This document shows, piece by piece, positions 6,480 through 48,160 of a stretch of 64,000 nt of DNA (position 1 is the first letter of the stretch; each line of letters starts with the position of its first letter). The notes under the pieces are model-generated. The model searched no databases and was not told the origin of the DNA. It saw nothing but the letters and a program-made list of their open reading frames with translations. The position numbers were made by a program, and so were the translations under genes. This DNA comes from Eucommia ulmoides (Eukaryota; Streptophyta; Magnoliopsida; Garryales; Eucommiaceae), in NCBI GenBank assembly GCA_016647705.1, contig CM028326.1:17981901-18045900 (forward strand). The letters are read 5' to 3'.

Positions 6480-7003
6480 AAATACACAATATTATAAGCA
6501 AAAAGGAAGCAAAAGGCGTGTTTTTGTTCAGCGCTTTTGTTCCTGAAATCTGGGAACAAAAACAGAATTTTTGGGAACCAAAAATATTTTTAGGTTGTTC
6601 TAAATGTTTTCTAGAACAGAAGCAGAAACAGAAACACTAAACAAACCAAAGAGTCCCATTATCAAACAGATGAAATTTCTGTTCCAAGTTTTCTGAGAAC
6701 TGAAACACTAAACAAACGCCATCTAAATGAACATTAAACAAACGCCATCAAAAAGGAAGCAAAAGGCGCGTTTTTGTTCAACGCTTTTGTTCCTGAAATC
6801 TGGGAACAAAAACAGAATTTTTGGGAACCAAAAATATATTTAGGTTGTTCTAAATGTTTTCTAGAACAGAAGCAGAAACATAAACACTAAACAAACCAAA
6901 GAGTCCCATTATCAAACAGATGAAATTCCTGTTCCAAGTTTTCTGAGAACTGAAACACTAAACAAATGCCATCTAAATGAACATTAAACAAACGCCATCA
7001 AAG
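6480..7003 (+). repeat. Tandem pair of roughly 250-bp repeats in the Helitron
   Basis: The first copy runs from about 6498 to 6750 and the second from about 6750 to 7000. Both begin AAAAAGGAAGCAAAAGGCG, carry TTTGTTCCTGAAATCTGGG, and end in ACATTAAACAAACGCCATCA. They differ at only a few positions, so the duplication is recent relative to the element. Confidence 0.85.
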
Positions 7004-27745: not shown

Positions 27746-30269
27746 AAAAATGGGAGGTTCTTACCTTTGTACCCCAAGAAGATCCATATTCATAGCTACA
27801 ACTTGCAACTTGACATGCAGCCTCAATATGGTCCATAAGAGAGTCTGGAGTAACTTCCTTGACGTTAGACGCCGATAAAATCTGAGCCGTTGATTTGATG
27901 AATTCCTTTGATTCTCCAAATGTCCTTTGTAAATCCACAAAATTCAATTTTCCTTCACCAAAATGAAGAAAATTTAAAGGTGAATGAAGAAAATTCAAGA
28001 TATGATAATAAATTTAACAGGAAAAGAGTCATATTTAGTTGAAGTAAAATCAGGTTACCGTTTGTTATTTTGTCATGTGGCGATAAACCGTAAATAACTC
28101 CTCTTCTGTGGAAACAACCAGTTCCTGCATAAAAGGGTCCTTGAATCCCCCCAATTCCACGTCCGACGTACTGAGACATTTACATGGAAAATTGTTCATA
28201 AACAGTGAAAAGGATGAATTACAGTGAGACCCTCCTAAGTTTTCGAACAAGAACAAACATAAGCATATTGTAAGATGATACAATGAAATTTATTGTCTGT
28301 ATTGTATATTCCTTTTCCTCTTTTGAAAAAAAAAAATCAACAAAATTCTATGCAAATTGTTGGGAAATAATTCATAAACTTTTCTCAATTCCGATAAATG
28401 GAAAAAAGAAAATCATTTTGCAGAGGAATTATTTCTTGAATGCTTTTTCCATTTATTTTTTAGTTCTTTGAACAAGTTTTTAGCCCCTCAATTAAAATCA
28501 ACTACATTGAATCAATTGAGTTAATGTTAACTAGATGTGGAATGTGTATTCAATATTCATATTAACTAAAATATTGGTAAAGATTACAAAATAAGTTGAA
28601 AATAAATTGTTAAGGAACAAAAAATAAGCTGCTCTATTAGTAGAATTAAAATTTTAAAAACCAAAAATAGATAACCATACAATAAGAACCCCTTTCGTTT
28701 CTTTTAGAAATTGCTGCATCTCTATACTTCTTTCCCCGGGGAGGGGGGAGGGGAGGGGGGGTTGTTAAATGTAACTTTACCTACAACATAACTCCGTTTA
28801 AAATGGTGAATTAGTACGCACCTCATGGAGGACATCCAATTGATTACTGTTGTAGAAATATTGTGGGAACTGAACAAACGCGCAATCTGATTCGTGTTGC
28901 ACGTCAAGCAGAGTACACATCGCGTGAAGAAAAATATGGGGGTTGTTTGCGTACATATCACAGTCCACATTCAGCATGAATGGAGCGTTTGTCATCACTC
29001 CAGAGACTCTCGTCTGTTCTTTGCCACAATGCAAAGGAAAAAAAAAACTGACATTAGATTTATATTAAGAACAAGGCTAAATAAAACTACTGGCATTATG
29101 GGTGGTGATGGGATTTATTCTAAAGTCAGTCATAAGAGAAGTGTAAATAGCATAAAGTAGAGGGTACAAAAGAGGAAATCTAACCAGAACGTTCATGGCA
29201 CCGGCTTTGTAATGATGGTGATGCTTCGGACGCTTCTCTCTGGAGATGTAGACAATATGGGGAATAGCATTTGGAACATCAGTTGTCTTGTTCTCCCACA
29301 CAACCTATGAAACATCCATAATTTTTGTAAATTTTTCCTTTAATTAGTTAGCATTCTTATTAATTTTTACGAATTTTTATTTATTTTTTTCACTAATTTT
29401 AAGAATTTTTTAAGCAAAAACAAAGTTCAGAAAAATAAAATAATTAGAAATAAACTCTACACGTGCAATTCATAGTGATTTAATTGTATTTATCAAATCC
29501 TGTCCAACTTCTAATTCTTCCTGTTGATACTCGGTTTTGGAGATGAATTACCTTTACAATAGCGGGATGGTTTCTTCGTTCAATATTTGAGAAAACAGCA
29601 AAGTCTCCATTGGGATCACAAGGCATGGGCGTTTGGGAAGCATTTTCTATCTTTAGGCAAAGATCCTTATACTCTTCCTACAAAATACATGAAAGACAAA
29701 CCAAAATTTTTATTAAAATTTAGAAACTGCCAGCAACAATTCTTGTCTTTCATATATGCTGATGTAATCAAGATTACTTCGACAAAAAAAGAGGGGCAAA
29801 AGCACAAATTCAATGGATTATAAGGTTGAAAGTGCAATTATCCTGGATATGAATTTAATTATTTACCTTCATTGTTCTCCATTCTTCTAGGAACTCTGAC
29901 GAAATACGTTCGGCCAAAGAGGGATCCGACGTAAAATATCGGAACGGAGCCCTAATGGGAACACTATACATCTTGCAGAACGGGACCCAACGCTGAGCAA
30001 AATTGGAGGTTTCGATGAGCGAGTAGTAAGTGAGAGGAGAGCCACCGTCGTCGGAGACATAGCAGGTTAATTTTTCGGCCGGATAATCTACCGCCAACAG
30101 CGATAGCACCGTGTTCATGGTGATGATTGGCGGTTCAAGAATGGGGTCTGATGTAGTAATGAACATGTCCACCGGAGGTAGCTCGTCTGCCCTATCAGAG
30201 AAATTTGATAAAAAATTATAAGCAAGATGAAATCTGTCATCATGCATATTGGGAGTTTCACATACAAGC

Positions 30270-30270
30270 T

Positions 30271-30302
<32 letters not shown>
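30270..30302. repeat. (AC)n(AT)n microsatellite in intron 1 of CSL copy B
   Basis: ACACACACAC followed by ATATATAT. The equivalent tract in copy A (about 2327-2343) is where the Helitron inserted. Confidence 0.9.
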
Positions 30303-30645
30303 TGGTTGAGTACCACTTGAGTAGCCGTTGCGGGTGGGTTTTGAAATCAAGCAGAGTCCACTTGGAGTTGACAGTGAGAATCCAGATGAAAGTGAACCAT
30401 GATTCACACCAGAAGGCGATAGTCCATGATGAGAGTCCATCACCATGGGTTTTGATATGGTGGAGTCGATAAAAGAGGAGAGAGAAGAGGAGGAAGAGGA
30501 TGGTGAGTTCCACTGTTCGTGAGACTGTGTTCTTCCGTGGAATCCTTTCATGGAGAGGCAGAGCAGCCATTGATGGAGTAAGACTCGTAACAGAAATAAC
30601 AGAAAAGAGTATTGCCGCCTCTGGCTTGTATTTCTTGTTGTGCTT

Positions 30646-30660
30646 AGTATTTATATTGGA
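30646..30660 (-). promoter_or_regulatory. Possible TATA box of CSL copy B
   Basis: On the minus strand ATATAAATAC lies about 80 bp upstream of the start codon at 30570. It is conserved in copy A, and no other core element was recognised. Confidence 0.4.
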
Positions 30661-30895
30661 TTTTGTCTGCTAGGTGGCTTCAAGGCCATAAAAATATTGA
30701 ATTGAAAAGTCTCTTTTACTTTTAATTTGAAAAATAGCTTTCATCCAATATAAAAATATTTTTCTTGACAACAATTTATATACATGTGTGTATGTATATA
30801 TATAGAGAGAGAGAGTTATTGGCATTTTACCCTTTTGTGGTTTAACTGAATTGTAGTTACCCAATGTGTTATTCTGATAAGCACTTTAGCCCCCA

Positions 30896-31179: not shown

Positions 31180-32124
31180 CCCCATATGGTATTAACTAAA
31201 GTGCAATTGTTATATTTTCTTTCAAAACTAACGGTCAAGTCTCAAACACAAAAAAATAAAATAAATAAATAAAATAAAAATAAAAGAATTCATTTAATAT
31301 TAATTGACATTTATACCCTCGGTCGGATCGGGTTGGGTTGGGTTAGATAATATCTTTTTCTTTCTTTTTTTTCCGTTAAACTGTCGGATCGGATATGACT
31401 TGATGCGAAACTTGCAAACCTCATCGGTTGTGATATTGAGACACCTGGTGGACTGCCTAGCTATGAGTCCTACGACACTAGAGTAGGATTCTCTAAAAAG
31501 GATCAAGTCAGGTTTAATATAAGGGCAAATTTGTTATTTCATGCAATTCTATTAAGGGATTTTAATTTTATAGTCCTGAGAGATTTGCATCTTATAAAAT
31601 GAACCTTTAACAACCTAAAAAAATTTTCGAGACCACATAAAAACTTATCAAATGGTCCCTAACTTATGCCCTTTCATTTGGTTCTATTTACACATGCTTG
31701 CCATCGGATTCTCTGTAATTCACATAAATGAGTATATGGGAAGTGACAGTTCACACTATTACTCCCTCGCTCAAGAAACCAGTTGATTCATCGTGAGTCT
31801 TTGTCCAAAATCGATAACAAAGAAACCAAATTAGTCGGAAAAAAATTCTCTTTCTAATGATGTATTTTTCAAATTTCTTGGGTCCGATTTCAGTGTTGGG
31901 GAACATTCATCGTGTAAGTTTTTTGCTGCCCGTTTGGTTATCGACGGCGTTTTCCTAAAATATCGAACACACTTACCACTAATAAAATGCCCCCCCCCCC
32001 CATATAGGAATTCCCTATTGCTAGATTATTGCTCATTGCGAAAACACGCTCGCATCTCAGACCCAGAGCATTTCGACTGAAACCCTAAATTCCAGTTTGT
32101 AAACGGCGGTGCACCGTCTGAAAA

Positions 32125-35100
32125 ATGACGAAGAAGCTTGAAACGCAATCCTCTCCGTCGCGAAAGCAAAAGAATCCCGACTCCTTGCAAGGTTAGTGCG
32201 TTTTTGGACCGACGAGTATGTCGATTTGGACTGTGAATGTTCGTAAATATTGTGAATGTCCATGATTTGGCTGAGACTGTATATTTATACATACTCTGAT
32301 ATTTATGTTCTATTCAGTATAATACAACGCCCCACGTGTTTTATGCTTTTCGGCGGTTGTTTTTTAATGTAGAATGTTCTTGTGGGTCACCAGTTTTTAC
32401 TTTTGATAATATTCTGATAAGTGTGCACTTTTTGTTTGTGGCGTGTGTGTGTGAATGTTCTTATATTTTAGAAAAACGTGTTCCCATTTTTTGTGACTGT
32501 TCTTACATGAAACTTACCTGTTTGTTGATGTATTGTCTTGTGTATGTTCAATTTGATTGTGAATGTTCGTTCGTCTGTGTGAATGTCAAAATATTAACAT
32601 GCATGTGTTTCCATGGTACCCCTGTATTTTTTATTTATGATCTGTTGAAGGTCCGATTGACTGTTTGGGGTCCATGTTCCCGTGAGTTATTTCGACGAAT
32701 GTTTACTTACGGATTTTGTTACTTTTTGTGAATAATCTGATAAGAGTGCCTAATGTGATTGTGCGCTGGTTTTTGACAATGCCATTAGATTGTTAAATGT
32801 ACAAATTGGGGTTGTGAATGTCCATAATTTGTTCCAATTTGTGAATGTTCTTACACGAACTTACCCTGCCGATGTAGTTCGTTAGTGTAAATGTTCATTC
32901 GATTATGAACGTTCCTACTCTGATAAGAGTGCCTAATGTGATTGTGCGCTGGTTTTTGACAATGCCATTAGATTATTAATATGTACAAAATGGAGTTGTG
33001 AATGTCCATAATTGTTCCAATTTATGAATGTTCTTATACGAACTTACCCTGTTGATGTAGTTTGTTGGTGTAAATGTTCATTCAATTATGAATGTTCCTA
33101 GTCTCGTGAACGTCCATGTTTGCTATTTGTCGACTCCTTGTGCATTATTTATGAATGTTTACTTTAGTGCATGCATATACGCTGGCATTCCCTCTTTTGA
33201 AAAATGGTTTATAACATTGAGGATTGTGAAGCCGAAGGCTAAAAATAAGTCTCAATCTCAGAGTAGACAGTTTTCGTACCAATGTAATCTAAAACAAGTA
33301 GTTGACCTTCTTAAAGATTGCAAACTCCACGCGAAGCACAAGGACTCGTTGTCGAAAACACCATTTGCAAAAAAAATTGAGGCATTATATGACAATAAAT
33401 TGTCATTGGAGAACGTTTAAAATAATGATAGCCTGATAGAGCGAGTGGTTATGAGTTACAATCCGTCCAGAGGTACGTTTAGGCTGGGTGATAAGAGTGT
33501 TAGTATGACACCGCTCGATATCCAGGTGATATTCGGGCTGCCTTTGGGGGATGAGCTCGTCGTTCAAACTCGATACACGCTGGCCGACTCTACATTTCTC
33601 AGCAAACTAACGTATCAACCCCGCGAGTTCAATGTCGCGTTCCTCAAATCATTGATTGAACAACGGGTTTCGCAAATAGGTGAAGATGACGTATAAGATA
33701 CTGTGAAACTCCTCTGTTTGCACCTGCTGACGACATATTTCTTTGCAACCACTGGTCAACAAGTCCCTAAGTGGTTGGTGCGCTATATTAAGAACCTTGA
33801 TGATATGTGTACCTACAATTGGCCACAAACGATCTTCACAGATTTGGAAACTAGTTTAAAGAAGTCATACACAGAACCAAGGTCGGTTACGGGGTGTGTC
33901 ATTGCGCTGCAGGTACTTAGTTTTTTTAACATTCTGTGTCAGTCGTATTGAATGTTTACTCTTTTTTTTTTACATTGGATTTTTCTCCGTTTTGACAGTA
34001 CTGGCTGTGCGAACACACCAACTTGATTACCCCAATTGATGGGCGAGATGTTTGAGTGCCATGTATGTTGAGATGGTACCTGACCACATATTCAAACGCA
34101 ATTGGATTGACGCCGTTGACTCACTTGCCGAATCATCAGGTGACTTTTTTGCGGTTGCTAAACGTGTTTGCACATTTATGTTGTTGTTTGAAATGTGAAT
34201 GTTAATCTGAATCCAATCAACGTCCAAAATATGTTTCAGGTGAAGGGGTGCATGACAGAGGAAACGTTGATTGAGATTCGATTAGAGATCATTGGGCGCA
34301 TTGAAAATGACGAAGAAGTTGTTGTCAAAGAAACACCAGTAGACGTGATGCCAAAAGTGGACAAGGGGAAGGCGCCAATGATCGAAGATGACGTTGATGT
34401 TGGTGCAATGATTGATAATCTTATGAGCACATATATCAACCCCGCCCTCACCCAACCAAGGAAAAGCGCCGCGCAGTTAATGTTCGATTTGGGTGTCGAT
34501 TTTACCCAGGCCGAAAGTACTATGCCCACCCAACAAACACAGGACATCGCAGTCGATGACGTTTACTGTGCATTGGATGAAATGCAGGAAGACTACTACA
34601 TGAGGAAGTTGGAGGCTGAAGAACGTAATGAAGCCATGTTGAAAGTTTTGGCAAATGTAACAATGAAGAGCATAAACCCACAAACTGATATTGAAGGACT
34701 AGTCGCGTCACTTGCTAGCCAAAAAGTCAAATACGATAATGATGTGGGTGTTCTCAATGCAAGGATCGCAACTCTCGAAAAAGAGAGGGAGACAATACTT
34801 ATTGAGATGGGCATTCATGAAATCACGCAAAGACATAGGGATCAACCGGTTAATACCGAACTTGAGGAGCTAAAAAAGAGATACGCAGATCTCGAACTGG
34901 AAGTAAAGGTAGCAGATCAGATCGTGAAGGAGGCAAAAGAGTCACAGGAGGCTAGTCGTAGAAGCTACATCTCGAAAATTAAGGAGCTTGCAGACGAATA
35001 CAGAGAGTTAGGGGACTGAATCAGCAGGTGCGTGTGTGCTGGGAAAAGACGTGTTGATTGTGCTCCCACTGCCCATGGGGGAGCTGCGGTCGGTGAACGT

Positions 35101-36201
35101 TCTATTCCATCGTCCGTGATTCCCAAATGTGAATCATCTTCTATTGCAACTGAAAAATCGTCGCGTTCCCCACGTCGTGAAAGGGTAGATCTTATATATG
35201 CATAACCGATAATAATGATTATGCCCGACGACGACGACGTGGTAGATGTGACTCCAATGCCATGTTTGACCTGCCCCCCACAACCAACTGATAACACACC
35301 GAAAGTCAGTTCAATGATAAAACGTATGAAGGGTAGGGTAAGGAATGAACGTAAAATGGGTAGCGATTATGTGTATCCTAAGGAAAAGGGCAAAGGGAAG
35401 ATCGTGGAAGAAAAAGACTCCATCGATGTCAATTAGCTACCCGAGAGGGATTATGAAGACACCGTAAAAATGCCCATCCGGAAACGATCAAAAGTAGCAA
35501 CGATGCTTGACGATAGGGATTGGGAGTTATTGCAGTTGATACATACTGAGGAAGGGGTCGGGTGTGTGCTGGAAATTTTTATACTTGTTACCTTATTTTT
35601 TCTGATGATATTTTTGAGCTGATTGCTTGATTCTCATTTTTTGCAATGCATTTGTGTGGGGTAGTGAGGGTCCGACTTCCACATTCACAGGCGATGATGC
35701 AATATGTTTAATTCAGGGCAAGCAAGTCGCAGATAATGTATGCATCTCAACCGACATTGTTGTTGTGGGGCGTTCATTAAAATTATGATCCCCGTAAATG
35801 TGTTTGTATGATATTACATGTGAATGTTAATGTTTTCGTTTTTCCACTTTTTCAATTCACAGGTTATTGATTCATTTGGCGAATTCTTGGAAATACAGAT
35901 GCGGACAATCAACACTATACGCAACACAAATGGGGTGGGCATGCTGGACCAGTCGAAATTCGTTATCGCGAGTGTGTGGGTAAGCATTAATTGTCTTAAT
36001 TTGTCTACTACTAATAAAATCGAGGCTAACATATGATTTATGCCACACAGACTGTTCTAAAGAAAAAACAACAGAAACTGTTGGATTATTTACATGCAAC
36101 GATCCAAGCTGCGTTTATCAACAACTGCCGGTACCTACTGTTCCCCATAAATTCTGATGGACATTATGCGTACGCAAATCATTGGACGTTATTAGTACTT
36201 G

Positions 36202-36267
<66 letters not shown>

Positions 36268-36760
36268 TGGACATTCTATAACTCCATATTGCCTAGAGAC
36301 CCGATGTCTGACCACTACTTCAAGGATGCTCGATGGGTGGTATGTAATATACAGTGCTTAATTTTCGTACACATTTGTTTGCTAAAAAATCACACAAAAA
36401 TGCTGAAAAAAATCTTATTGTGAATGTTCTATAGAAAACTGTCGTTGAGTTGTTTCTCAACAAACAAATTGACCACGAATGGGGGGATGCTACCATTGAA
36501 CAATGTCTTGGAACGCCACAGCAAAAAGGATCGTAAGTGTCTATAACTACTTTTTATGTACCAACCGTTTTTATGTAAATGTATAAATCAAAATTTCTTT
36601 GCCGTTCACAGGACTGATTATGGTGTGTACGTGATGTATATGATGCTCCAGCATGCCGAGAACAAACTTGTTGCAAAAAAAATAAAAGCAGAAGAGCTTA
36701 AAACGTCCGTAAGACAGTCCTCCATTACTTGTTGAACGATCGGAAACGAACTTGGTCTCT
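32125..36760 (+). pseudogene. MULE-borne Ulp1 (C48)-type protease gene with DUF1985-like N-terminus
   Basis: A multi-exon gene with a probable start at 32125 (MTKKLETQSSPSRKQKNP, donor at 32192) and a long intron 1. N-terminal DUF1985/PMD-like sequence lies at about 33200-33950: FRLGDKSVSMTPLDIQVIFG, then LLCLHLLTTYFFATTGQQVP. A 270-residue acidic and coiled-coil segment follows (34195-35019). The C-terminal Ulp1 domain is in exons near 35863-35979, 36052-36339, 36435-36532 and 36612 onward. The catalytic histidine (YANHWTLLVLD) and glutamine-region GTPQQKGS are visible, but the nucleophile position reads TDYGVYVMYM, tyrosine (TAT, 36619-36621) where DCG is expected. An (AT)n expansion shifts the frame after the histidine, and several stops occur (e.g. 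33418, 33694). Family members remove SUMO-like modifiers or, in VANDAL elements, relate to VANC anti-silencing factors. Confidence 0.75.
36207..36263. repeat. (AT)n microsatellite within the Ulp1 domain
   Basis: About 28 AT repeats lie between the codons for HWTLLVLD and those for KWTFYNSILP. They would encode an Ile-Tyr run and put the downstream sequence out of frame. Confidence 0.92.
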
Positions 36761-37359
36761 TTCAGCTACCAAACTGAGGAAGAAGCATGACGGGTCTCTA
36801 TAAGTGATTGAACAATCAATGGACTTACGGTTTTTGGGTTCCGTTTTGTTGTAGACATTTAGTATGACGGCCACCACATAGGTTTTTTTTGTTGTAGACA
36901 TTTAGTATGACGACTTGTTTTAGATTTAGTTATTTGTACTTAACACGGATTTGGATTTTGGGCTCTATGTGCACATTCACAAGAATACCACCACACACCA
37001 TACCTTCATCACCAAAAATCATATCTGAGTTAGTGAACGTTCATGTGCAACTTGAACATTCAGAATGCACATAGAATAAGACAGCTTTTTGGAAATCTGA
37101 ATGTTCATGTATGGTTGTATTGCATAAGTTTATACTTATGGGTTCGAAAAATTCTGTAATGCAAAAAAACGTAAAAAAACACATGATCACAAGAGAAATT
37201 TGCAAAAAAAATAGGGAATGCTAGATATATACCCATCTTAACAAAAGCAAAATATAAGCATCCATACCCACAAAAAGAAAAAGAAAACAAAAATTGTTCA
37301 AACTTAAAACATATGCTTTCGTAGATTGATGTATCAAAAAATAGACCCAGGTCAGATAA

Positions 37360-38380
37360 TCACTCCGCCATGTCGATGGACGATTCGCTCGGCGCCGGCG
37401 GAGCAAAACCAAGGCCAAGGTAGCTCCTCAGACGCTCGACCTCTTCCTCTAGGTCAGCAACATGTCTGCGAAAGTACTTCACTTCCACCCTCATTTTGTC
37501 AGTCTCGTCACATTTGTCGTGGTACCTCCAGCGTGCCCCGCCCATCCTCCATTGCATCGATCTTGGTAGCTCCATCAGTCTCTTGGCATCCTCGTCCCAC
37601 CGACTAACTTGTGCATCAAACACATCGTTCGCGTTGTTTTGCTGGTTGTCAGCGTGAATGTTTCTCTCGTTATCCATTGTCTAACACACAAAGTCAACCC
37701 ATATGGGTTTGTCAGTCCGAAACATCACGAAAATAGTGTGTGATATTCAACCGCCCACTAAAAAAATCTGAAAAAATATTCATGAATTGGAATTTATAAG
37801 TGGGAGGGGATGAACATTCATACAAGGGGAAAAAAATGTCCCCCCCTAGTTTGCCCGTATTCAAACACACATATTCAAACCATCGAAACCCTGGATGGAA
37901 AAAAAGAGACGTACTAACCATGTGTTCCCATAAATGAAACATGTATCTGTTTGTAAAAAATAGTATACTACATACCACAAATGTGCGGACAAGTAAACGT
38001 GGTTCTTAAAATAGGGCTAAAAAAAACTTAGAACCACCAACCAACAAAAACATCTTACAAAATGTGTTATGATAGTCTGGTCGTAAAAAACCAAAAAGCC
38101 ATATGTGTGCTAACACATGCGAATTGTAGATTAAGAGCGGTAAATAGACTTACCAATTTCTCGTTGTGTTCTCGCCGGTAGAACTTCGAACGTTATTTTA
38201 TGAGGAATGTCAGGTAACTCAAAATCGATCTCTATGTGGGCGTGGATTGGAATGCAGATCGTCATATATATAGATCCATTCCCTTTGGCCTCCGTACCTG
38301 GCTCGATGTTTGGGGTGTGGCGTTCCATTATCCAAAGCACGAAACCGGCGATGTGTGGTGACGCTTCACATAGAGTCATA
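37360..38380 (-). CDS. Possible third MULE gene, two coding-like exons, unidentified
   Basis: Two minus-strand stretches look coding. One (about 38140-38379) contains IAGFVLWIMERHTPNIEPGT and IEIDFELPDIPHKITFEVLP and ends at a strong donor, GTAAGT (near 38145). The other (37360-37677, ATG at 37677) is a 105-residue frame with a coiled coil (VKYFRRHVADLEEEVERLRS). Their exact joining could not be settled: the nearest acceptor does not keep the frame. They lie between the Ulp1-type gene and the transposase, where Mutator and VANDAL elements carry accessory genes. I recognise no family. The hAT insertion at 38568 may have cut off upstream exons. Confidence 0.35.
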
Positions 38381-38567
38381 AATGTTCATTCTAACTCTTT
38401 TCTTATCGATCCACGAAACGACGACTGGCTCATGTCACCAAGGCTAAAATCTGTACGAAAAAATTGGGGAGTTTATAAATGTTAATTTTTTTAAGATGCA
38501 ATAATGAGAAGGGTGAGAAACACTTGAGTTAGTTTTTGTGTATGTTCATATTTGAGTGACTTCCCAG

Positions 38568-41500
38568 CAAGGTTTTAAATCGCAGTATCGTATTACGTAA
38601 CGGTAACGGTCGTGGTGTAACGGTATCGGGAATATCGGCCTGTCCGTAACGGGAATCGGCCGTAACAGGAATCGGCCGTAACGGTCGTGAATTTTTTAAA
38701 ATCACTAGAACATCCCCAAAAACTCAATAAGAGTAATTGTTTCACTTATTTAACAGTTAATAAACACATTATAATAGATATTATGATATTTTAGGGTTAT
38801 ATACAACACAATAAAGACATAAAAAATACAAAAAACCGTTGTACTTAACAATTTTAAAAGAATAAGATGATACACACAATACTTAATAAAAATATATTAC
38901 ACAAACATAATAAAAGAGTAAATTGTACTTTTACATCATATTACAAAAACAATACACTCATATAAAATTATCAATACCAAAACGAATTGCGCGCAGGCTC
39001 TTCATAGTCGGCATCGGCATGATCACCACTCTGATTTTGTTATGCAGCACCATAACCATCAAAGTAGTTAAAGGTGCAATGATCATAAATAGTGTTGCTA
39101 AGACCACTACCATCGGTACCACTAGATTCTGTTTTTTCTTCGTAGTAACCGAAAGTAGAACTCGAACTCTCTTGATGTGGAGGAGGGACACCGTATTGGT
39201 AAGAAGGTGATGGTGGATATGAGTATCCAGTAGCAGGAGGTTGTGGGCATCCTAAAGGACCCATACCCACATAATGTGGTGCCGAAACATATTCCGATGA
39301 AGGATAATAAGGGTAAGGATATGGTTGTGGTTGAGGCCACCGATGATAATTATCCCCTTGATATCCATATCCGTATCCTCCAACTCCAAGCATACCAAAG
39401 CGGTTTGCCATGTCATCATATTCTTCGGAATTTGAGGATTGTGGGTTTGGTCTTCTTCTTGATGATCCAATTGCACTAGAAACAAAATGCCTTCGTGGCT
39501 CACTAATATCCCCACGTGCGACATCGTCTGCAAATCCAGCCATTCCTAACTCTCCATGATATGGCGATCGTCTAGTGTCTCCTCCACTTCCACCATCATC
39601 ACCACTAGACTCTCCACTATGTGGGCTCAAACCACGACCACGATTAGTATCACTTCCATCTCCAGATGGACTATCATTCTGCCAACGTCGAGGTGCTTGG
39701 CTACTGGCAGTAGCGACCTCATCATCGCTTACGTCTAACCATCCAGAGTTGTCCTGATCATCTAGCAATGGTTCTTCTCTCTCTTGAAGCCATGGAGATA
39801 GTGGATCATCTTCCTCAAAGATATAATCCAAGTTTATAGGGTTGAAGTTATCTTCAATTTCACTTTGGCTTAATCTCGTAGCATATCTAATTTTCAACCT
39901 CATATTATAAGCCACGTAAACAAGTTTATTCAGTTTTTGATACTTTAGACGATTTCTCGTCTTTGTATGTATCAAGCTGAATGTGCTCCAATTACGCTCG
40001 CAATTAGAAGACGATGTTGTTTGGCTCAACACTTTAACTGCAATCTCTTGAATTTCAGGGGCAGATGTACCAAAGTGGATCCACCATTCAGCTGTAGAAA
40101 TAATATGAATTAAAACGATACGAAGATTGAGATTCTTATATTAATAGTTAATTGTTCATTGTATTACCCGGATTCGTACGTGTTACTACTTTTTGAGCCA
40201 ATACTGTCCCGAAAGAATGTTTTTTGTCACGAAACGTCATAATCTATATTTAGAACGTAACAAATCAAAAACCCACAAATAAAACACAGAAAACTTAGTA
40301 ACTTGTTAGTCTCTAGTTATTACTTAAAAAAAAAAAAAAGAACTAACTTGATTAATAGCTTGAATTTGTTTATCAATATTCGGCTCCAATCTTTGAATCA
40401 CATTTTGAACTCCCTCCATTACCTCTCTATGGTCAGAAAGTTTACCACCATATTGAAATTGAGGATTTAAAAAATAACTTACATGAATTCAAAACAAAAA
40501 ACACATTTTGTTAAAGGAAGTTTAATTCTAACAAGTAACAAGAGTTTTTAAAATTGAATTTACAATTAGTGAATTACTTACCAGCCGCATGCAAATCATG
40601 GTGTAATTGGAATTGCCATCTTTTGTCGATTATATTCCAATATTTTTTGTAGTAACGACAATTTTTTTCAATGGCCATCTTCGCTTTGTCCATAGCTTCA
40701 GAGACGAATCCCATTGTAGGCTTCTCATCTCCATCAACAAGCCTAAACACCCTCACCAATGGTTCTTGAACTTTTAAAATTTCAATGGCTTTTTTCCAAA
40801 AACCATTGTCGTTCACAATTTTTCTAACTTTTTTTCCACACTTCTCCTTCGCCCATCTTTTGCTTTTCCACTCATCACAATTAAACATATCTTGTAAGGC
40901 ATTCTTATACCTTACAATGTTTTCCAGCATAATGAAATTGGTGGCAAAGCGTGTGATCCCGGGGAATAATAACTCTTTTCCTTCAGTGAATCTCTTCATA
41001 AAATCAAGAACACAACTAGAGTTATAAATGAAGCGTGATATTCTTCTTGCATCATCCAAGACTTTCAGCACATTTGTTTTCTCTCCAATATCTTTCAATA
41101 TCAAATCAAGGCAATGTGCAGCACAACCTGTCCAATATAAATTTGGTCTTTTTAACGTAAGTTTTTTCCCCGCCGCTTTTATTGCAGGCTCATTATCAGT
41201 GACAATTTGGACAATATATTTTTCACTAATTTCATCCACCACCTTGTCCATAAACCCGAAGTAATAATCAGCAGCTCTGTTAACATCGGTGGCATCCACT
41301 GATTTATGAAAAACAGTTCCTCAATTACTATAAATCAAAAAATTGATAATGTGCTTCCGGGTAAGTCCGCTCCATCCATCATACATGATCGTAACGCCCC
41401 TCTCCTCCCAACTTGGTTTATGAGATTCGATCCACTTTCTCAATTCTTCATATTCTCTAGGTAAGAAAACTTCAATCACCTCGTAAGGAGTAGGGACTTT

Positions 41501-43180
41501 CACTCTTTTTCCAACCTCCCTCGCAACATCCAACATTAGCTCAAGCCATGGCGAATTAACGTTTGTTGGCAAACGTGTGTATAACACAAATTGACTAACT
41601 GCGACCCTTAATTTTTTCCTCAACCCTTTTATTACCCTTGTTGAGATCTTTTGTTGTTTGGGGGCTTTGCTACGGTGTAGATCAACATCAATCTCGGCCA
41701 ACCGTGCTTCAGGTAAAGACGAATCAATCCAAGTTTTTTTCGAACTCGATTCACGGACAGTAGAAGATCGTCGAAACATATTAGCAATGCGAGTAGTAGT
41801 GCTTCCCTGCCTAGTGCTTTCACCAACCCCGCTATTACTCCCAGTCTCATATCGGTTGCCTGCATCCCTCCTATATCTCTCCCTATCTTCTTCTTCTCTA
41901 TGCAACCTCATACTTTCTTTTCGTGCATAAGCCATATCCGGATCATCCGAGTTATCATCATCACTCAAATCGTAAGGATCATCTTCATCACGTTGAGAAG
42001 CTCGAATTTGTTCAATCACTTCTTCTCTTTGTTTTCTTTTATTCATTTTTTTCTCCAAGCTACCTTCAAGATGTTTCATCATAAGCGTTCTAACATCGGC
42101 ACTAACACTTTGGCATGGAGCTACTTGACCCTTTTTGGCCGCCACGTGTTGCTTCAATCTAGTTATTCCGCTATTTATCTCTCTACCACAAAATTTACAT
42201 TTTAATTTGTGTCTAGAACCACTAATAGGAATCCCGAATTTCCATCCAATATCATCACTAAGAGGATGTGATCCTTCTTCACCCGATATTGTTAAATTTT
42301 AATTTTCTGTAATTTACATACACAAATTTAATTCATACTATTTACTAAAATTATAATTGAAGCTAATTAACACCACATTAACCATTATATATATATATAT
42401 ATATATATATAATGTGATAAATAATAATGACAAAAAAACAAATTGCTATTAAAATATAAGTTAAAAAATTTTAGGACTAAATTGTAATTGTAAAAAAAGC
42501 TAATTAACAATTTTAGGACTAAATTGTAATTGTAAACAAGTTAATTAACAATTTTAGGACTAAATTGTAAACAAAAATTATTTCTAAACCCCCTAATTAT
42601 ATTCAGCATTTCAGCCATACCCACACACCCAAATCAAACGCGACACTCACACACCCGAATGGAGAGAGAGAGACAAACGGAGCGGAGGTGAGTAGGCGAC
42701 AGAGACGGCGACGAGCTGCAACGCAAAGGAGAGAAGACGTCGCCGGCGACGCGAGAGCTACGTTCGGCGGCGGCGAGCTGTTTCTGTTACGGTTTGGCAA
42801 CACCGCGACGAAAATCTCAATGTTTTACGAGCTCTTTGGATGGATACGGTCTAATTGGTAAGTGTTTTGTTATCTTCTATTAGTTTTTTCTCCTCCTTGC
42901 TCAATTATATGAAGAATCTCTGAAGAAAGCTGAAAAGCTTGAGCTGGCTGTCGGTCTGTGAAGAATTTCTGAAGAAAGCATGTCTTTACAGACCGTAACG
43001 GCCATTACAGTCTCAGTAACGGCTGTAACGGCCCATATCGGCCCGTATCGGGCCGTAACGGCCCGATACGGTGTGATTCAGCCCTAGATTCCGGAATCGG
43101 CCGTGTATCGGTATCGGCCTACCCATTTTCCGGTACAAATCGGCCGTTACGGTACATAACGGCCGATATTTAAAACCCTG
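38568..43180 (-). mobile_element. hAT transposon, 4.6 kb, nested in the MULE
   Basis: The ends CAAGGTTTTAAATCGC and (inverse) CAGGGTTTTAAATATCGG are flanked by a perfect 8-bp target duplication CTTCCCAG (38560-38567 and 43181-43188), the hAT hallmark. Both subterminal regions (about 38585-38695 and 43005-43165) carry clusters of CCGTAACGG, CGGCCGTAACGG and TATCGG words in both orientations, likely transposase-binding sites. The interior encodes a hAT transposase on the minus strand with one visible nonsense change. It is a former autonomous copy of the family that includes 44480-45680. Confidence 0.93.
39040..42295 (-). pseudogene. hAT transposase (BED finger, DUF659, hAT dimerisation), nearly complete
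   Basis: The domain order on the minus strand is complete. A BED-type zinc finger (KLKCKFCGREINSGITRLKQ, then HVAAKKGQVAPC) comes first, then an acidic/charged region. DUF659 follows (YDGWSGLTRKHIINFLIYSN, then VTDNEPAIKAAGK and WTGCAAHCLDLILKDIG), with the catalytic core continuing (FPGITRFATNFIML). Small exons near 40346-40477 (FLNPQFQYGG) and 40170-40254 (FGTVLAQKVV) lead into the C-terminal dimerisation region (SSSNCERNWSTFSLIHTKTR). A long Gly/Tyr/Pro-rich tail ends at 39040. A TGA at 41321-41323, probably from CGA, sits in the N-terminal third, so full-length protein is not made from this copy. The start codon was not resolved. Confidence 0.85.
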
Positions 43181-43188
43181 CTTCCCAG

Positions 43189-43644
43189 TGAAAATTTGTG
43201 TTGAAAAAAAATTGAAATCTAATATCTGTACTTATTTGATGCAAAGTAATTGTGAGAGAGCGTAAGTGCAAACATGTGTTGTTGATGGGTTGCGTGAATA
43301 TTCATGATGACTTTCACCAAAAGCATATCTTTGTTACTCTGTCCGATAAAAATTGGGTGCATGGTCATGATGGCTTCCTTTTTTTTTTTTTGCTAATGTC
43401 AACTGTACATATTCTGCTTAGTTCTGTGGGAATGGAACCCCTTCAAGATAACTAATGTTATTGTGTGGTCAAAACATCCCACTCCACAAAATACATAAGA
43501 AAAATGAAGCTGAAATTAACAATCTGAAAATTTATATAAATCATCTAAGTAGCAATAAAACGAATCAAAAAAGGATGCATTGTCTCGGAAAAAATGCTCC
43601 AAACGTCTATAAAATGAATAAATGAAACAAAATAAATTGAGATG
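43189..43644. other. MULE sequence between the hAT element and the transposase
   Basis: No gene is recognised. It has a T-rich run at 43379-43392 and otherwise ordinary AT-rich DNA. Confidence 0.5.
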
Positions 43645-46600
43645 CTAAATTGGGTCTGTGCACGTCTTTCGATTGTGACGCCCAATCTTTTTGCAACGGC
43701 TGCAACAAATTTCAGCGATCTCGCCCTTGGACGGTATACGCTTCTTCCTGGGACGTCCAAGTTGCTTTTTGGTAATTAGTAGGATGATAAAAGTTTCGTC
43801 TTCTTTCCACACCGGCCTCTCAAGTATCAGGACGCCAAAAATTCCTTCCACGTATGTTTGTCTATAGTAGTCCACTAAGAAGTAAACTTCAATAAATGTA
43901 TGCATGTTCTGGCCGCTCTTCAAAATAGCTGAACACGCATGTGCGCATGGGAAACCGTTGACTTGCCAGCTCAAACATGTGCATGACATGTTCTTCAAGT
44001 CAACCAACACAGACGGGTATGATAGAACTTCGTAAACGTTATTCCCACATTCAATGACCATCCAAGTTCGTCCTAAGCTAATATTTTGTGCAATCATTTC
44101 GTCGCGGCACGGCAAAATAACTCCCACCATCGTCAATGACTCAGCGCATTTGGCTAACATTTGTGCCATTAACTTACATCTGATTTTGTCGATCATCGTT
44201 ATAATTGTCAGGTGTCATAGATCACGAATCCATGCATTGAATGATTCCGCAAGGTTTGATGACATTTCGCCGTACCGTTGGACTTGAAAGAACAGGTTAC
44301 AAAATCTATCCGGCAGGACGTCATGTAATAAAATTTCAACTCGAGCTCTACCCTCGGCCTTCAGGGCATCAAGCATTTCGTTGTATTTGTCAAATGTCAT
44401 GGCATATGCCATTTTTGTAAATTTGAAGACCAAGCTCTCTTTCAATCCTTGCTTCATTCCGGTTAACTTGTCCTTCAGGCAAGGTTTTAAATCCCGGTAT
44501 CGGGTTACGGAACGATAACAGTCGCGGTGTAACGGTATCGGGAGTATCGGCTTGTCCGTAACGGGAATCGGCCGTAACGGTCGTGAATTTATTAAAATCA
44601 CCAGAATATCCTCAAAAACTCAATAAGAGTAATTTTTTTACTCATTTAACCTTTAATAAACACATTATAATAGGTATTATGACATTTTAGGGTTATATAC
44701 AACACAATAAAGACAAAAAAAAAGACGAAAAACCGTCGTACTTAACAATCTTAAAAGAATAAGATGATGCACAAAATACTTAATAAAAATATATTACACA
44801 AACATAATAAAAGAGTAAAATATACTTCTACATCATATTACAAAAACAATACACTCATATAAAATTATCAATACCAAAACGAATTGCGCTCAGGCTCTTC
44901 ATAGTCGGCGTCGGCATAATTCATACTATTTACTAAAATCATAATTAAAACTAATTAATACTAAATTAACCATTATATATATAGTTATACATATAATGTC
45001 ATAAATAATAATGACAAAAAAAATGCTATAAAAATAAAAGTTAGAAAATTTTAGGACTAAATTATAAACAAGTCATTTATCATTTTATAAATCAATATTA
45101 TTTCCAAACCCCCTCAATTATCAACCAAACACACCCATGACCCACCCAAATCAACCGACACACTCACTCACACGCCCAAATGAGATGGAGAGAGAGAGAG
45201 AGAGACGAACGGAGTGAGGCGAAGACGAGGAGCTGCGACGCGACGGAGAGAGCTGCGACTGTGATGTCTCCGGCAACAGCGAGAGCTATGTTTGGCGACG
45301 AATTGTTTCTGTTAGGGTTTGGCGACGCCGCGATTAATATCAGCTCTTTGATTTTCTGCTAATTGGTAAGTTTTTTTTTGTCTTCTACTATTTTTTTCTT
45401 CACCTCTGCTCAATTATATGGAAGATTCTCTGAAGAAAGCTGAAAAACTAGAGCTCACATGGGTGTTGGACCTAAAAATAGAGCTGTAACGGCCGTAACG
45501 GCTATAACGGCTGTAACGGCCTCAGTAACGGCCGTTACAGCACCGTATCGGTCCGTAACAGCCCGATACGGTGCGAATCGTCCCTAGACTCCGAAATCGG
45601 CTGTGTAACGGTATCGGAGGGTTCGATTTCCGATACGAATCGGCCGTTACGGTATGTAACGGCCGATATTTAAAACCTTGCCTTCAGGTGATTGAGGTAG
45701 AATGCGTGGAAACAGTTTGGGAACATTCTCCCCACACCATCGATGATTCCGTTGTGTCTGTCTGATATGAATGTTAACACTTGTTCGTGCGAAACAATTA
45801 TGGATAAATTGGTTAAGAACCACCGCCAATTGTCGTCGTTCTCCGTATCTACGACCGAAAACACAATCGGGAACATTTCTGTGAATACCAACAAATCGTC
45901 AAAGTTATGTATTAGACTGTCGCCAAAAAATGCAGAAAAGAAACTAAATATATTTTACATTGGTTTATCATTTTAATTACCATTTGCTCTTTCTTTTGCA
46001 TTCGCTGCCAACAGACATTCCTTGTACCAACCACATAGGAAGGTCCCATCCAGAAAAATCATGGGGCAGCAATTGTTGAAACCTTTAATGCTAGCGTTAA
46101 ATGCAATAAAAATTCTCTTAAAGTGACCCGTTTCTTTGTCATAATCTAGAACAAAATGACTCCCTGGGTTCATACAAGCATCGATGTACCATCAGACTTG
46201 GTCGTATGAAAATTTGTAATCCCCGTATAACTCATTCCGGGCTTTCTCAACGCCGTTTCACGCAATGTGGTATGGGATATCAATCCTGTAATCATTCTTA
46301 AACGCATGAACGACATCAATGGGGATAACATCAAGTGTGTTTCTCACCAAATCAACCAAGCAAGACTTCACAACATTTGAATTCATGTTTGCGTTCAGGG
46401 CCGACATATAAACAGCCCCGCATGAATGTACATTGTTGAACTTCCATATGTAGAAAAACTCATTGCTCTCATCCACCCTCCCGTGTACTTCCCATTCGCA
46501 CCCTATTTCTTCATTTCGTGAACATTCTGCCGTGACTCTCTTTTTATCGTTTTTCTTCAATTTGAAGGTAAAACCTCCATTAACAGCAAACTTCCTAAGA

Positions 46601-47079
46601 ATTTCCCTAAATTCGGGAACCCCACCCATAAAAATTTGTCCCACCTCTTTGATGCCTTCACCCCATCAATCCGACAACAATGTTTTTTGTGACAACGGAC
46701 AAAAAATCGACAACAAATCATGATCTCTCAATTCGTCTCCTCCGTTGCCCCAACACGTTGATGGCTCAATTGTCATTATGGGTCCATTGCCATCCGATCC
46801 ACTCCCGCTGCCACACACTTTGATGTTGACACAGATGTATTCGAACTTCAAAATCCGAGAAATTCTATAGACAACTTCAAAGTCGGCTTCGGATGACAGT
46901 ATATACTTGTCGTGTCCAGTGATGGAATAGTATAGCTCAAAAGTGTCACGCCTCAGTATCTCCCACCTCGCTATTATTTTTTGAACCAACATGTCAAACG
47001 TGACATAATCCGCACGTTTAATTCCGTATGAATACCCATCAAGCTTGCACATCAACACTAGTTTGTATGCCATATCCAT
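43645..47079 (-). pseudogene. MULE transposase (MuDR/MURA type) interrupted by a hAT element
   Basis: The domain order on the minus strand is: an N-terminal region (46666-47079); the MuDR DNA-binding domain (46258-46644; FTFKLKKNDKKRVTAECS, GCEWEVHGRV, VHSC); the DDE core with CPMIFLDGTFLCGWYKECLL (first D), SVVDTENDDNWRWFLTNL and LTFISDRHNGII (second D) down to 45689; and, after the 1.2-kb hAT insertion, YGEMSSNLAESFNAWIRDL (E). It ends with a SWIM zinc finger CTCLSWQVNGFPCAHA (near 43960) and a C-terminal zinc-knuckle-like ICCSRCKKIGRHNRKTC. Stops near 46664, 46256 and 44213 and the insertion destroy the frame. The intact enzyme would cut and paste the element by binding its ends. Confidence 0.88.
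44480..45680. mobile_element. Non-autonomous hAT element, 1.2 kb, in the MULE transposase
   Basis: The ends CAAGGTTTTAAATCCCGG and (inverse) CAAGGTTTTAAATATCGG carry a perfect 8-bp target duplication CCTTCAGG (44472-44479 and 45681-45688). The first 440 bp match 38568-39010, including the last codons of the transposase gene, and the last 700 bp match the other end of that element. It is therefore an internal-deletion derivative of the 4.6-kb hAT. The same CCGTAACGG-type clusters occupy both subterminal regions. Confidence 0.93.
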
Positions 47080-48160
47080 TTCGTTTGTTATCTGCCCATT
47101 TACAAACTAAGGCTCACAAAAAATAACATATTAATGTGCGGAAAAAATTCGAAAAGTATGCTACCATTAAAAATGCAATTTGGAGTTTCTCTGTCTGTTT
47201 CAAACACACCAATTGACAAAGTGATTTTGAAAGAACATTCACAACGTATTAACATGTTAAAATCCATTTTACAAAGAGATGTTTCTTTGTTCATTCCATG
47301 CACACCCTTCACATGTTGAACATTCGCTCCGCCCCTGAACATTTCATATTCATATGTTCATCCTGTGAATGTTCTCGAATGCAGGTTAAAAATAACATTT
47401 TTCATAATAGTTTAGTGAATGTTCTCTAACACTCCTCTCCCCCCCCCCCCCCCCCCCCCCCAGTATTCCCATACACTGTGACTTTGTTCATGTCTCACAA
47501 CTATAGATAATGCAAAACAAAACCTTCTTTGTGAATGTTATCGAATGTCACCAAATATGAGGTTTTTCATAACATGTTGTAAATGTTCTACTCTATGGAT
47601 ATTCCCATACACTGTGCATTTATGTGACTTGTTCAGATCTCAAAACTATGGATATGGCAAAATAAAACCGAACTGATTTTGCAGAATGAAAATTGATTTT
47701 TGCAAAAAGCATAAACGGGTGAAACTTTGACAGTCGAAAAAAACACAATATACTCACCACACCACACGATATCTTGCTTCCGTTTCAATACATAACCCCG
47801 AGCTCGATGGATCAAATAAATCGTGACTACAATCCACAGTTCCACCTGTTCTTTCTAATGGATTCGAACTCTGTTTTGGTCGTCTCTTCGTTTACCAAAA
47901 TTATGGGTTGATTGAATTAAGAAAAGATGCCATAAATAAGATGGATTAATGAACCTACCTAATTAATCTGTAAATGGGAACTTATCAAAATCGCCTGCTC
48001 AGCCAACATGGAGGTATCGACGTCCATGCATTTTGTATTTTGAACTGTCAGAGATCATATTATTAGAATGTTTTATAAAAGGTTGAAATAATAATCTCTA
48101 ATCCATATTGGTTTGATGAGGAAAGAGAATATGCAATTTGGTCTAAATAATAAAAATCCC
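47080..48160. other. Right terminal non-coding region of the MULE
   Basis: No gene is recognised. It holds a dense group of the motif GTGAATGTTC and variants (47233 inverse, 47326 inverse core, 47365, 47415, 47531 and 47579 variants) and the poly(C) run. It would contain the transposase promoter and 5' leader. Confidence 0.6.
47439..47461. repeat. Poly(C) run of 23 bases
   Basis: An uninterrupted C run in the right non-coding end of the MULE. A shorter C run (about 12) lies near its left end at 31990. Confidence 0.9.

Follow-up and report, generated by a model that had tools for sequence, protein, structure and literature searches.

What a short DNA word is for, when it lies scattered through the non-coding parts of a single transposable element, is the question raised by a locus of Eucommia ulmoides. 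The stretch analyzed here, referred to as the window, comprises 64,000 nucleotides (GenBank assembly GCA_016647705.1, contig CM028326.1, positions 17,981,901 to 18,045,900, forward strand) and contains a Mutator-like element (MULE) that carries a DUF1985 gene and a transposase gene and is interrupted by two nested inserts. The original prediction, made from the letters of the DNA, considered the 10-bp word GTGAATGTTC, with its core GAATGTTC, a candidate anti-silencing or transposase recognition site, and this proposal is partly supported. Its anti-silencing half fits well, because the word lies densely in the non-coding DNA of a DUF1985-bearing MULE, has one orientation in intron 1 (13/13 matches), is retained in related copies, and is replaced by another motif in another DUF1985 group; its transposase half fits poorly. 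By analogy with the VANC anti-silencing proteins of Arabidopsis VANDAL elements, the motif would be recognized by one of the element's own proteins, most likely that of its DUF1985 gene, with a probability of roughly 0.65.

The window holds eight exact copies of GTGAATGTTC, every one at the position originally given, and all within the MULE's own DNA. The core GAATGTTC occurs 20 times, with 18 copies in the MULE and only the two already noticed outside it (10928 and 58018), against 3.34 expected per whole window from dinucleotide shuffling (maximum of 100 shuffles, 9). The core positions read by eye were mostly right, apart from three shifts (37099 instead of 37100, 46520 instead of about 46523, and 47318 instead of 47326) and two overlooked inverted copies, at 31901 and 45721. 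With up to one mismatch to GTGAATGTTC, 37 matches are found versus 5.76 expected, the largest shuffle giving 13, so enrichment over dinucleotide-shuffled sequence, the absence of which would have spoken against the proposal, is strong. Using insert limits taken from the 8-bp duplications, these matches are divided into 34 in the MULE without its inserts (10,791 bp), none in the inserts (5,814 bp), in agreement with their description as free of the motif, and three in the remaining 47,395 bp.

The motif is, moreover, placed in non-coding DNA. An approximate coding model, some exon junctions of which are not clean, leaves 31 of the 34 MULE matches non-coding (5,949 of 10,791 bp; binomial P 6e-6), or 30 of the 34 when 35030-35660 is added to the coding part. 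The claim that copies fall in introns and terminal regions rather than exons, therefore, holds for most matches, with the reservations that two of the 18 cores, at 45721 and 46520, are coding, and that 'terminal' has to be replaced by 'subterminal' on the evidence of 18 left ends. Within the intron 1 array (Table 1), one 8-mer occurs eight times, a number reached in 0 of 300 shuffles.

Retention of the motif can be followed in related copies. Relatives of the MULE's left part give 90 matches in three identity tiers, or about 40 elements (best 40 of 325 candidates), and those of its right part give 73 matches (best 40 of 676 candidates). All 21 other elements analyzed carry the motif, with 288 matches (≤1 mismatch) in 114,186 bp and 9-29 per element, so the second condition that would have spoken against the proposal, related copies lacking the motif, did not arise; as these copies are homologous, such counts are not independent. 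In 17 left-end regions, the window copy excluded, the core is observed 96 times versus a shuffle mean of 1.7 (largest of 200 shuffles, 6), and the strongest 8-mer is TGTGAATG. For the set of 18 elements, six of 24 were left out because the left region was not spanned, one dropped copy (C16:44985300) being kept for single k-mer tables. Beyond the first 600 bp of these 18 left regions, 177 matches are on the plus strand and five on the minus strand. The top 7-mer is TGAATGT in five tabulated copies (tied in one), including two that are about 25-30% diverged from the window copy; the motif is, therefore, best written TTGTGAATGT[T/C]C, a seed-based form, and the motif matrices, built from seed matches with ≤2 mismatches, are partly circular. 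Four diverged copies (L072-L075) have 1-3 matches each at their right ends (≤1 mismatch, 11-mer form), which is below the window copy. De novo motif discovery with a home-made expectation-maximization procedure was dropped, as poly-A was the outcome for both of the sequences used.

Different DUF1985 groups are paired with different motifs in this genome. A Pfam DUF1985 search yielded 105 matches (best 150 of 580 candidates), the best 30 of which gave loci at 27 places and make up a second group. A palindrome, AGTAGATATCTACT, is dispersed in all 30 loci, with 488 matches at ≤2 mismatches, including 144 exact ones. In the same 101,904 bp, the core GAATGTTC is absent and GTGAATGTTC occurs 11 times with ≤1 mismatch, close to the chance rate. 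Thirty loci of the first family (22 elements, window included, overlapping loci counted twice) hold 392 matches to their own motif and none to the palindrome. The second group's motif flanks the DUF1985 match on both sides, and 0 of 767 looser matches fall inside it. AGTAGATATCTACT is a perfect 14-bp palindrome with 4,120 sites genome-wide, compared with 6 for the reversed control. Among the best candidates scored in PF10551 and PF02902 searches, no transposase or Ulp1 match tied to this group was found. Its DUF1985 matches (L039-L068, G000) often form pairs on the same strand, with about 5 kb between the two members.

A third lineage is represented by a single stretch of 900 bp, which lies 5' of a DUF1985 gene with 53% identity to the query from copy L071 (best 150 of 1,723 candidates). 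There, ATGTTAAC occurs five times within the shifted form GTGNATGTTAAC, and a count of five is not attained by any 8-mer in 300 shuffles. A control stretch (L082) is indistinguishable from its own shuffles, 64 of 300 of which reach its level. Genome-wide, GTGNATGTTAAC shows a weaker excess (1,299 sites vs. 507) with clear clusters. Two same-strand clusters of this form (G000:C1:16518917-16519468 and C2:616200-616463) have successive steps of 60, 60, and 47 bp.

Among the alternatives, the one that survives best, while being unlikely, is that the motif constitutes a subterminal transposase binding site used for cutting and pasting the element. Both main clusters are located 0.6-1.7 kb from the two ends, and inverted ends are the reported site of action of maize MURA (PMC10398659). 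Nevertheless, this explanation fits poorly, because the density of matches within the outermost 600 bp, measured on the 18 left ends only, is one-ninth of that further in (13 in 10,800 bp vs. 182 in 16,894 bp). Matches are also present 3-6 kb inside the element, and the different motif of the second group both precedes and follows the DUF1985 match.

It is improbable as well that the motif is a functionless old minisatellite or intronic repeat, simply inherited and partly duplicated. The 183-bp unit found in two tandem copies in the window would be in line with such an origin (across the 18 elements, it is present twice in 3, once in 14, and not at all in 1), as would the homology that makes the counts non-independent. 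Still, the matches are irregularly spaced and spread over both subterminal parts and several introns, and distinct motifs beside distinct DUF1985 groups would not be expected of it. Conservation bears on both sides. In the alignment, 10 of 11 sites are better conserved than their own flanks (resampling P ~0.006, window copy excluded), and mean pairwise identity is 0.903 for the motif vs. 0.844 for other columns, but the gain is modest, since 25% of single random windows attain the mean of the motif. An earlier k-mer conservation figure (66% vs. 34%) had no local control and is superseded by this comparison.

Binding by host transcription factors is very improbable. The heat-shock element has the form GAAnnTTC, to which GAATGTTC conforms, and some plant elements are heat-driven. 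However, 96 of the 107 occurrences of GAANNTTC in the 17 left ends are the single sequence GAATGTTC, on either strand, so that the free central bases of a heat-shock element are not seen; the common variants GTGAATGTCC and GTGAATGTTA disrupt the TTC half, the strongest 8-mer is TGTGAATG, and the motif beside another DUF1985 group bears no relation to this one. Least credible of all is a signal in intron 1 for splicing or transcription, which would account for all 13 intron-1 matches being on the transcript's strand but not for the six mixed-strand matches at 47233-47588, in the right non-coding part outside the DUF1985 gene.

Recognition by the DUF1985 protein has to be weighed, in turn, against several results that count against it, besides the modest gain in conservation. 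Some of them come from the rest of the genome, where GTGAATGTTC has 10,372 sites vs. 1,469 for its reversed form, an approximately seven-fold enrichment, and where TGTGAATGTTCACA (1,113 sites vs. 15) and AGTGAATATTCACT (167 vs. 9) are also in excess. Among 11 places drawn from the first 100 sites listed (six from L001-L008 and five dense clusters), four are MULE-like (L001, L002/L003, L008, and L079) and seven have no detected similarity to the MULE, so enrichment in this family only, the test originally put forward, is not borne out by these places. The motif and a palindromic form cluster in arrays without detected similarity to the MULE, and ownership of the motif by the MULE family's protein is therefore not proven. 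Secondly, the loci of the second group are related to one another and represent one case, not 30 independent ones. The best spacing periods of motif copies are 13.75 and 9.25 bp, and 10.5 bp is not seen, in loci that are non-independent; helical spacing of motif copies is reportedly dealt with in Sasaki 2022. Finally, Pfam scores lie under the cut-offs and the gene is interrupted: a single exon of the window gene scores 18.1 bits with Pfam DUF1985 (cut-off 35.1), the C48 (Ulp1) protease domain reaches 13.9 bits (cut-off 20.7) in one piece of copy L071, and the DUF1985-like gene of the window copy carries stops. The DUF1985 relation of this plus-strand gene is indicated by tblastx, with 30 of 30 DUF1985 loci matching window 33277-34028. 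Among solved structures, none related to the DUF1985 query was found (best E 0.36).

Three of the arrays without detected similarity to the MULE (L076, L077, and L078) are real by shuffling, each with its own flanking letters. L076 (G000:C1:1424850-1425450) is dense in TGTGAATGTTCACA and its inverse, with no MULE similarity detected, while L077 and L078 are two related arrays based on AGTGAATRTTCACT. Among the matches listed, no clear co-location of palindromic arrays with DUF1985 matches was seen by eye.

In the anti-silencing mechanism favored here, the DUF1985 protein would bind dense arrays of sites in introns and subterminal DNA, and, once bound, might remove or block DNA methylation at these arrays, so that its own family would be re-activated and the rest of the genome left untouched. 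The non-coding parts of elements are also those targeted by RNA-directed DNA methylation, according to PMC10398659. In Arabidopsis, as described in PMC5735166, the word YAGTATTAY forms arrays in non-coding DNA, its copies sharing one strand; VANC21 binds to these arrays and removes methylation, and VANC6 has a motif other than that of VANC21. VANDAL21 (Hiun) resembles the present element in being a DUF1985-bearing MULE, in its short, dense, one-orientation, non-coding motif, and in tandem-repeat turnover, but differs in the motif (TTGTGAATGT[T/C]C here). Likewise, VANDAL6 has a related protein with its own motif and non-coding tandem repeats, the motif there being AGTTGTCC/AGTTGTAC (same paper). 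A review (PMC13317346) describes VANDALs that carry Ulp1 and refers to Sasaki 2022 for eudicots; the KIU-carrying (Kaonashi) VANDALs, with their captured Ulp1 domain, recall the Ulp1-like remnant beside DUF1985, although the Ulp1 score remains under the cut-off here. Spm TnpA and MuDR MURA are further element proteins reported to lower their own family's methylation (PMC10398659), but they act at element ends, where the present motif is sparse. For DUF287, a domain of VANC21-type proteins, no match was seen among the 10 pieces scanned, the gene being broken and scanned piecewise. DUF287 is not required in every VANC. In the literature searched, GTGAATGTTC was not found in print, nor were VANC motifs outside Brassicaceae, the key eudicot paper (Sasaki 2022) not being covered.

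More tentatively, DUF1985 proteins may form a large class of sequence readers in which protein and target word diverge together, several lineages coexisting in one genome (with TTGTGAATGT[T/C]C, GTGNATGTTAAC, AGTAGATATCTACT, and perhaps TGTGAATGTTCACA). For some, the sites would be dyad-symmetric, in contrast to the asymmetric VANC21 and VANC6 motifs, implying a dimeric mode of binding. If this is true, the genome would offer a natural protein-to-motif code. A testable set of DUF1985 protein/motif pairs is available from this one genome. Related proteins with different motifs would provide material for learning how such proteins choose DNA, and the pairs could guide sequence-specific epigenome tools. 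Given its excess over the control, the 14-bp palindrome would be a strong first target.

The limits proposed for the MULE are borne out by its ends and flanks (Table 1). A 9-bp target duplication and short inverted ends, as expected of VANDAL/VANC elements, are present, and in the related copy C10:29048248 (copy A) the target duplication, read by eye, is 9/9 identical. The transposase gene of the window copy is split by the insert at 44480-45680 and carries stops. The two nested inserts are partly similar to each other, and GTAACGG repeats are abundant in them.

Table 1. Features of the MULE and of its motif in the window (motif matches: ≤1 mismatch to GTGAATGTTC).
Feature	Position	Strand	Remarks
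MULE, interrupted by two inserts	31556..48160		Short inverted ends GGGATTTT/AAAATCCC, 8 bp
Left target-site duplication TTCTATTAA	31547..31555		Partner TTGTATTAA, 8/9 bases identical
Right target-site duplication TTGTATTAA	48161..48169		Partner TTCTATTAA
DUF1985 gene, weak Ulp1-like 3' part	~32126..36740	+	Span approximate; stops interrupt window copy
Intron 1 array, 13 matches	32193..33231	+	4 exact; 13/13 on + strand
Tandem repeat, 183-bp unit x2	32736..33104	+	Several motif copies inside
Single motif matches outside coding model: 34195, 35093, 35820, 36420	34195..36429	+	35093 model-dependent
Motif matches 3' of gene: 36971, 37033, 37054, 37097, 37654, 37812, 38538	36971..38547		37654 coding
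Small open frame, 106 amino acids	37360..37680	-	Without Pfam match
Nested insert 1 (hAT in the original prediction)	38568..43180		8-bp duplication CTTCCCAG; motif matches 0
MuDR-type transposase gene	43645..47106	-	DBD_Tnp_Mut PF03108 5.8e-13, SWIM PF04434 6.9e-8, both over cut-off
Nested insert 2	44480..45680		8-bp duplication CCTTCAGG; motif matches 0
Right subterminal array, six matches	47233..47588		Three exact; both strands

Elsewhere in the window, open frames on the minus strand at 28798-30669 are, by eye, a candidate for a cellulose-synthase-like protein, and a 250-bp tandem duplication with near-identical copies is found at 6499-7002.

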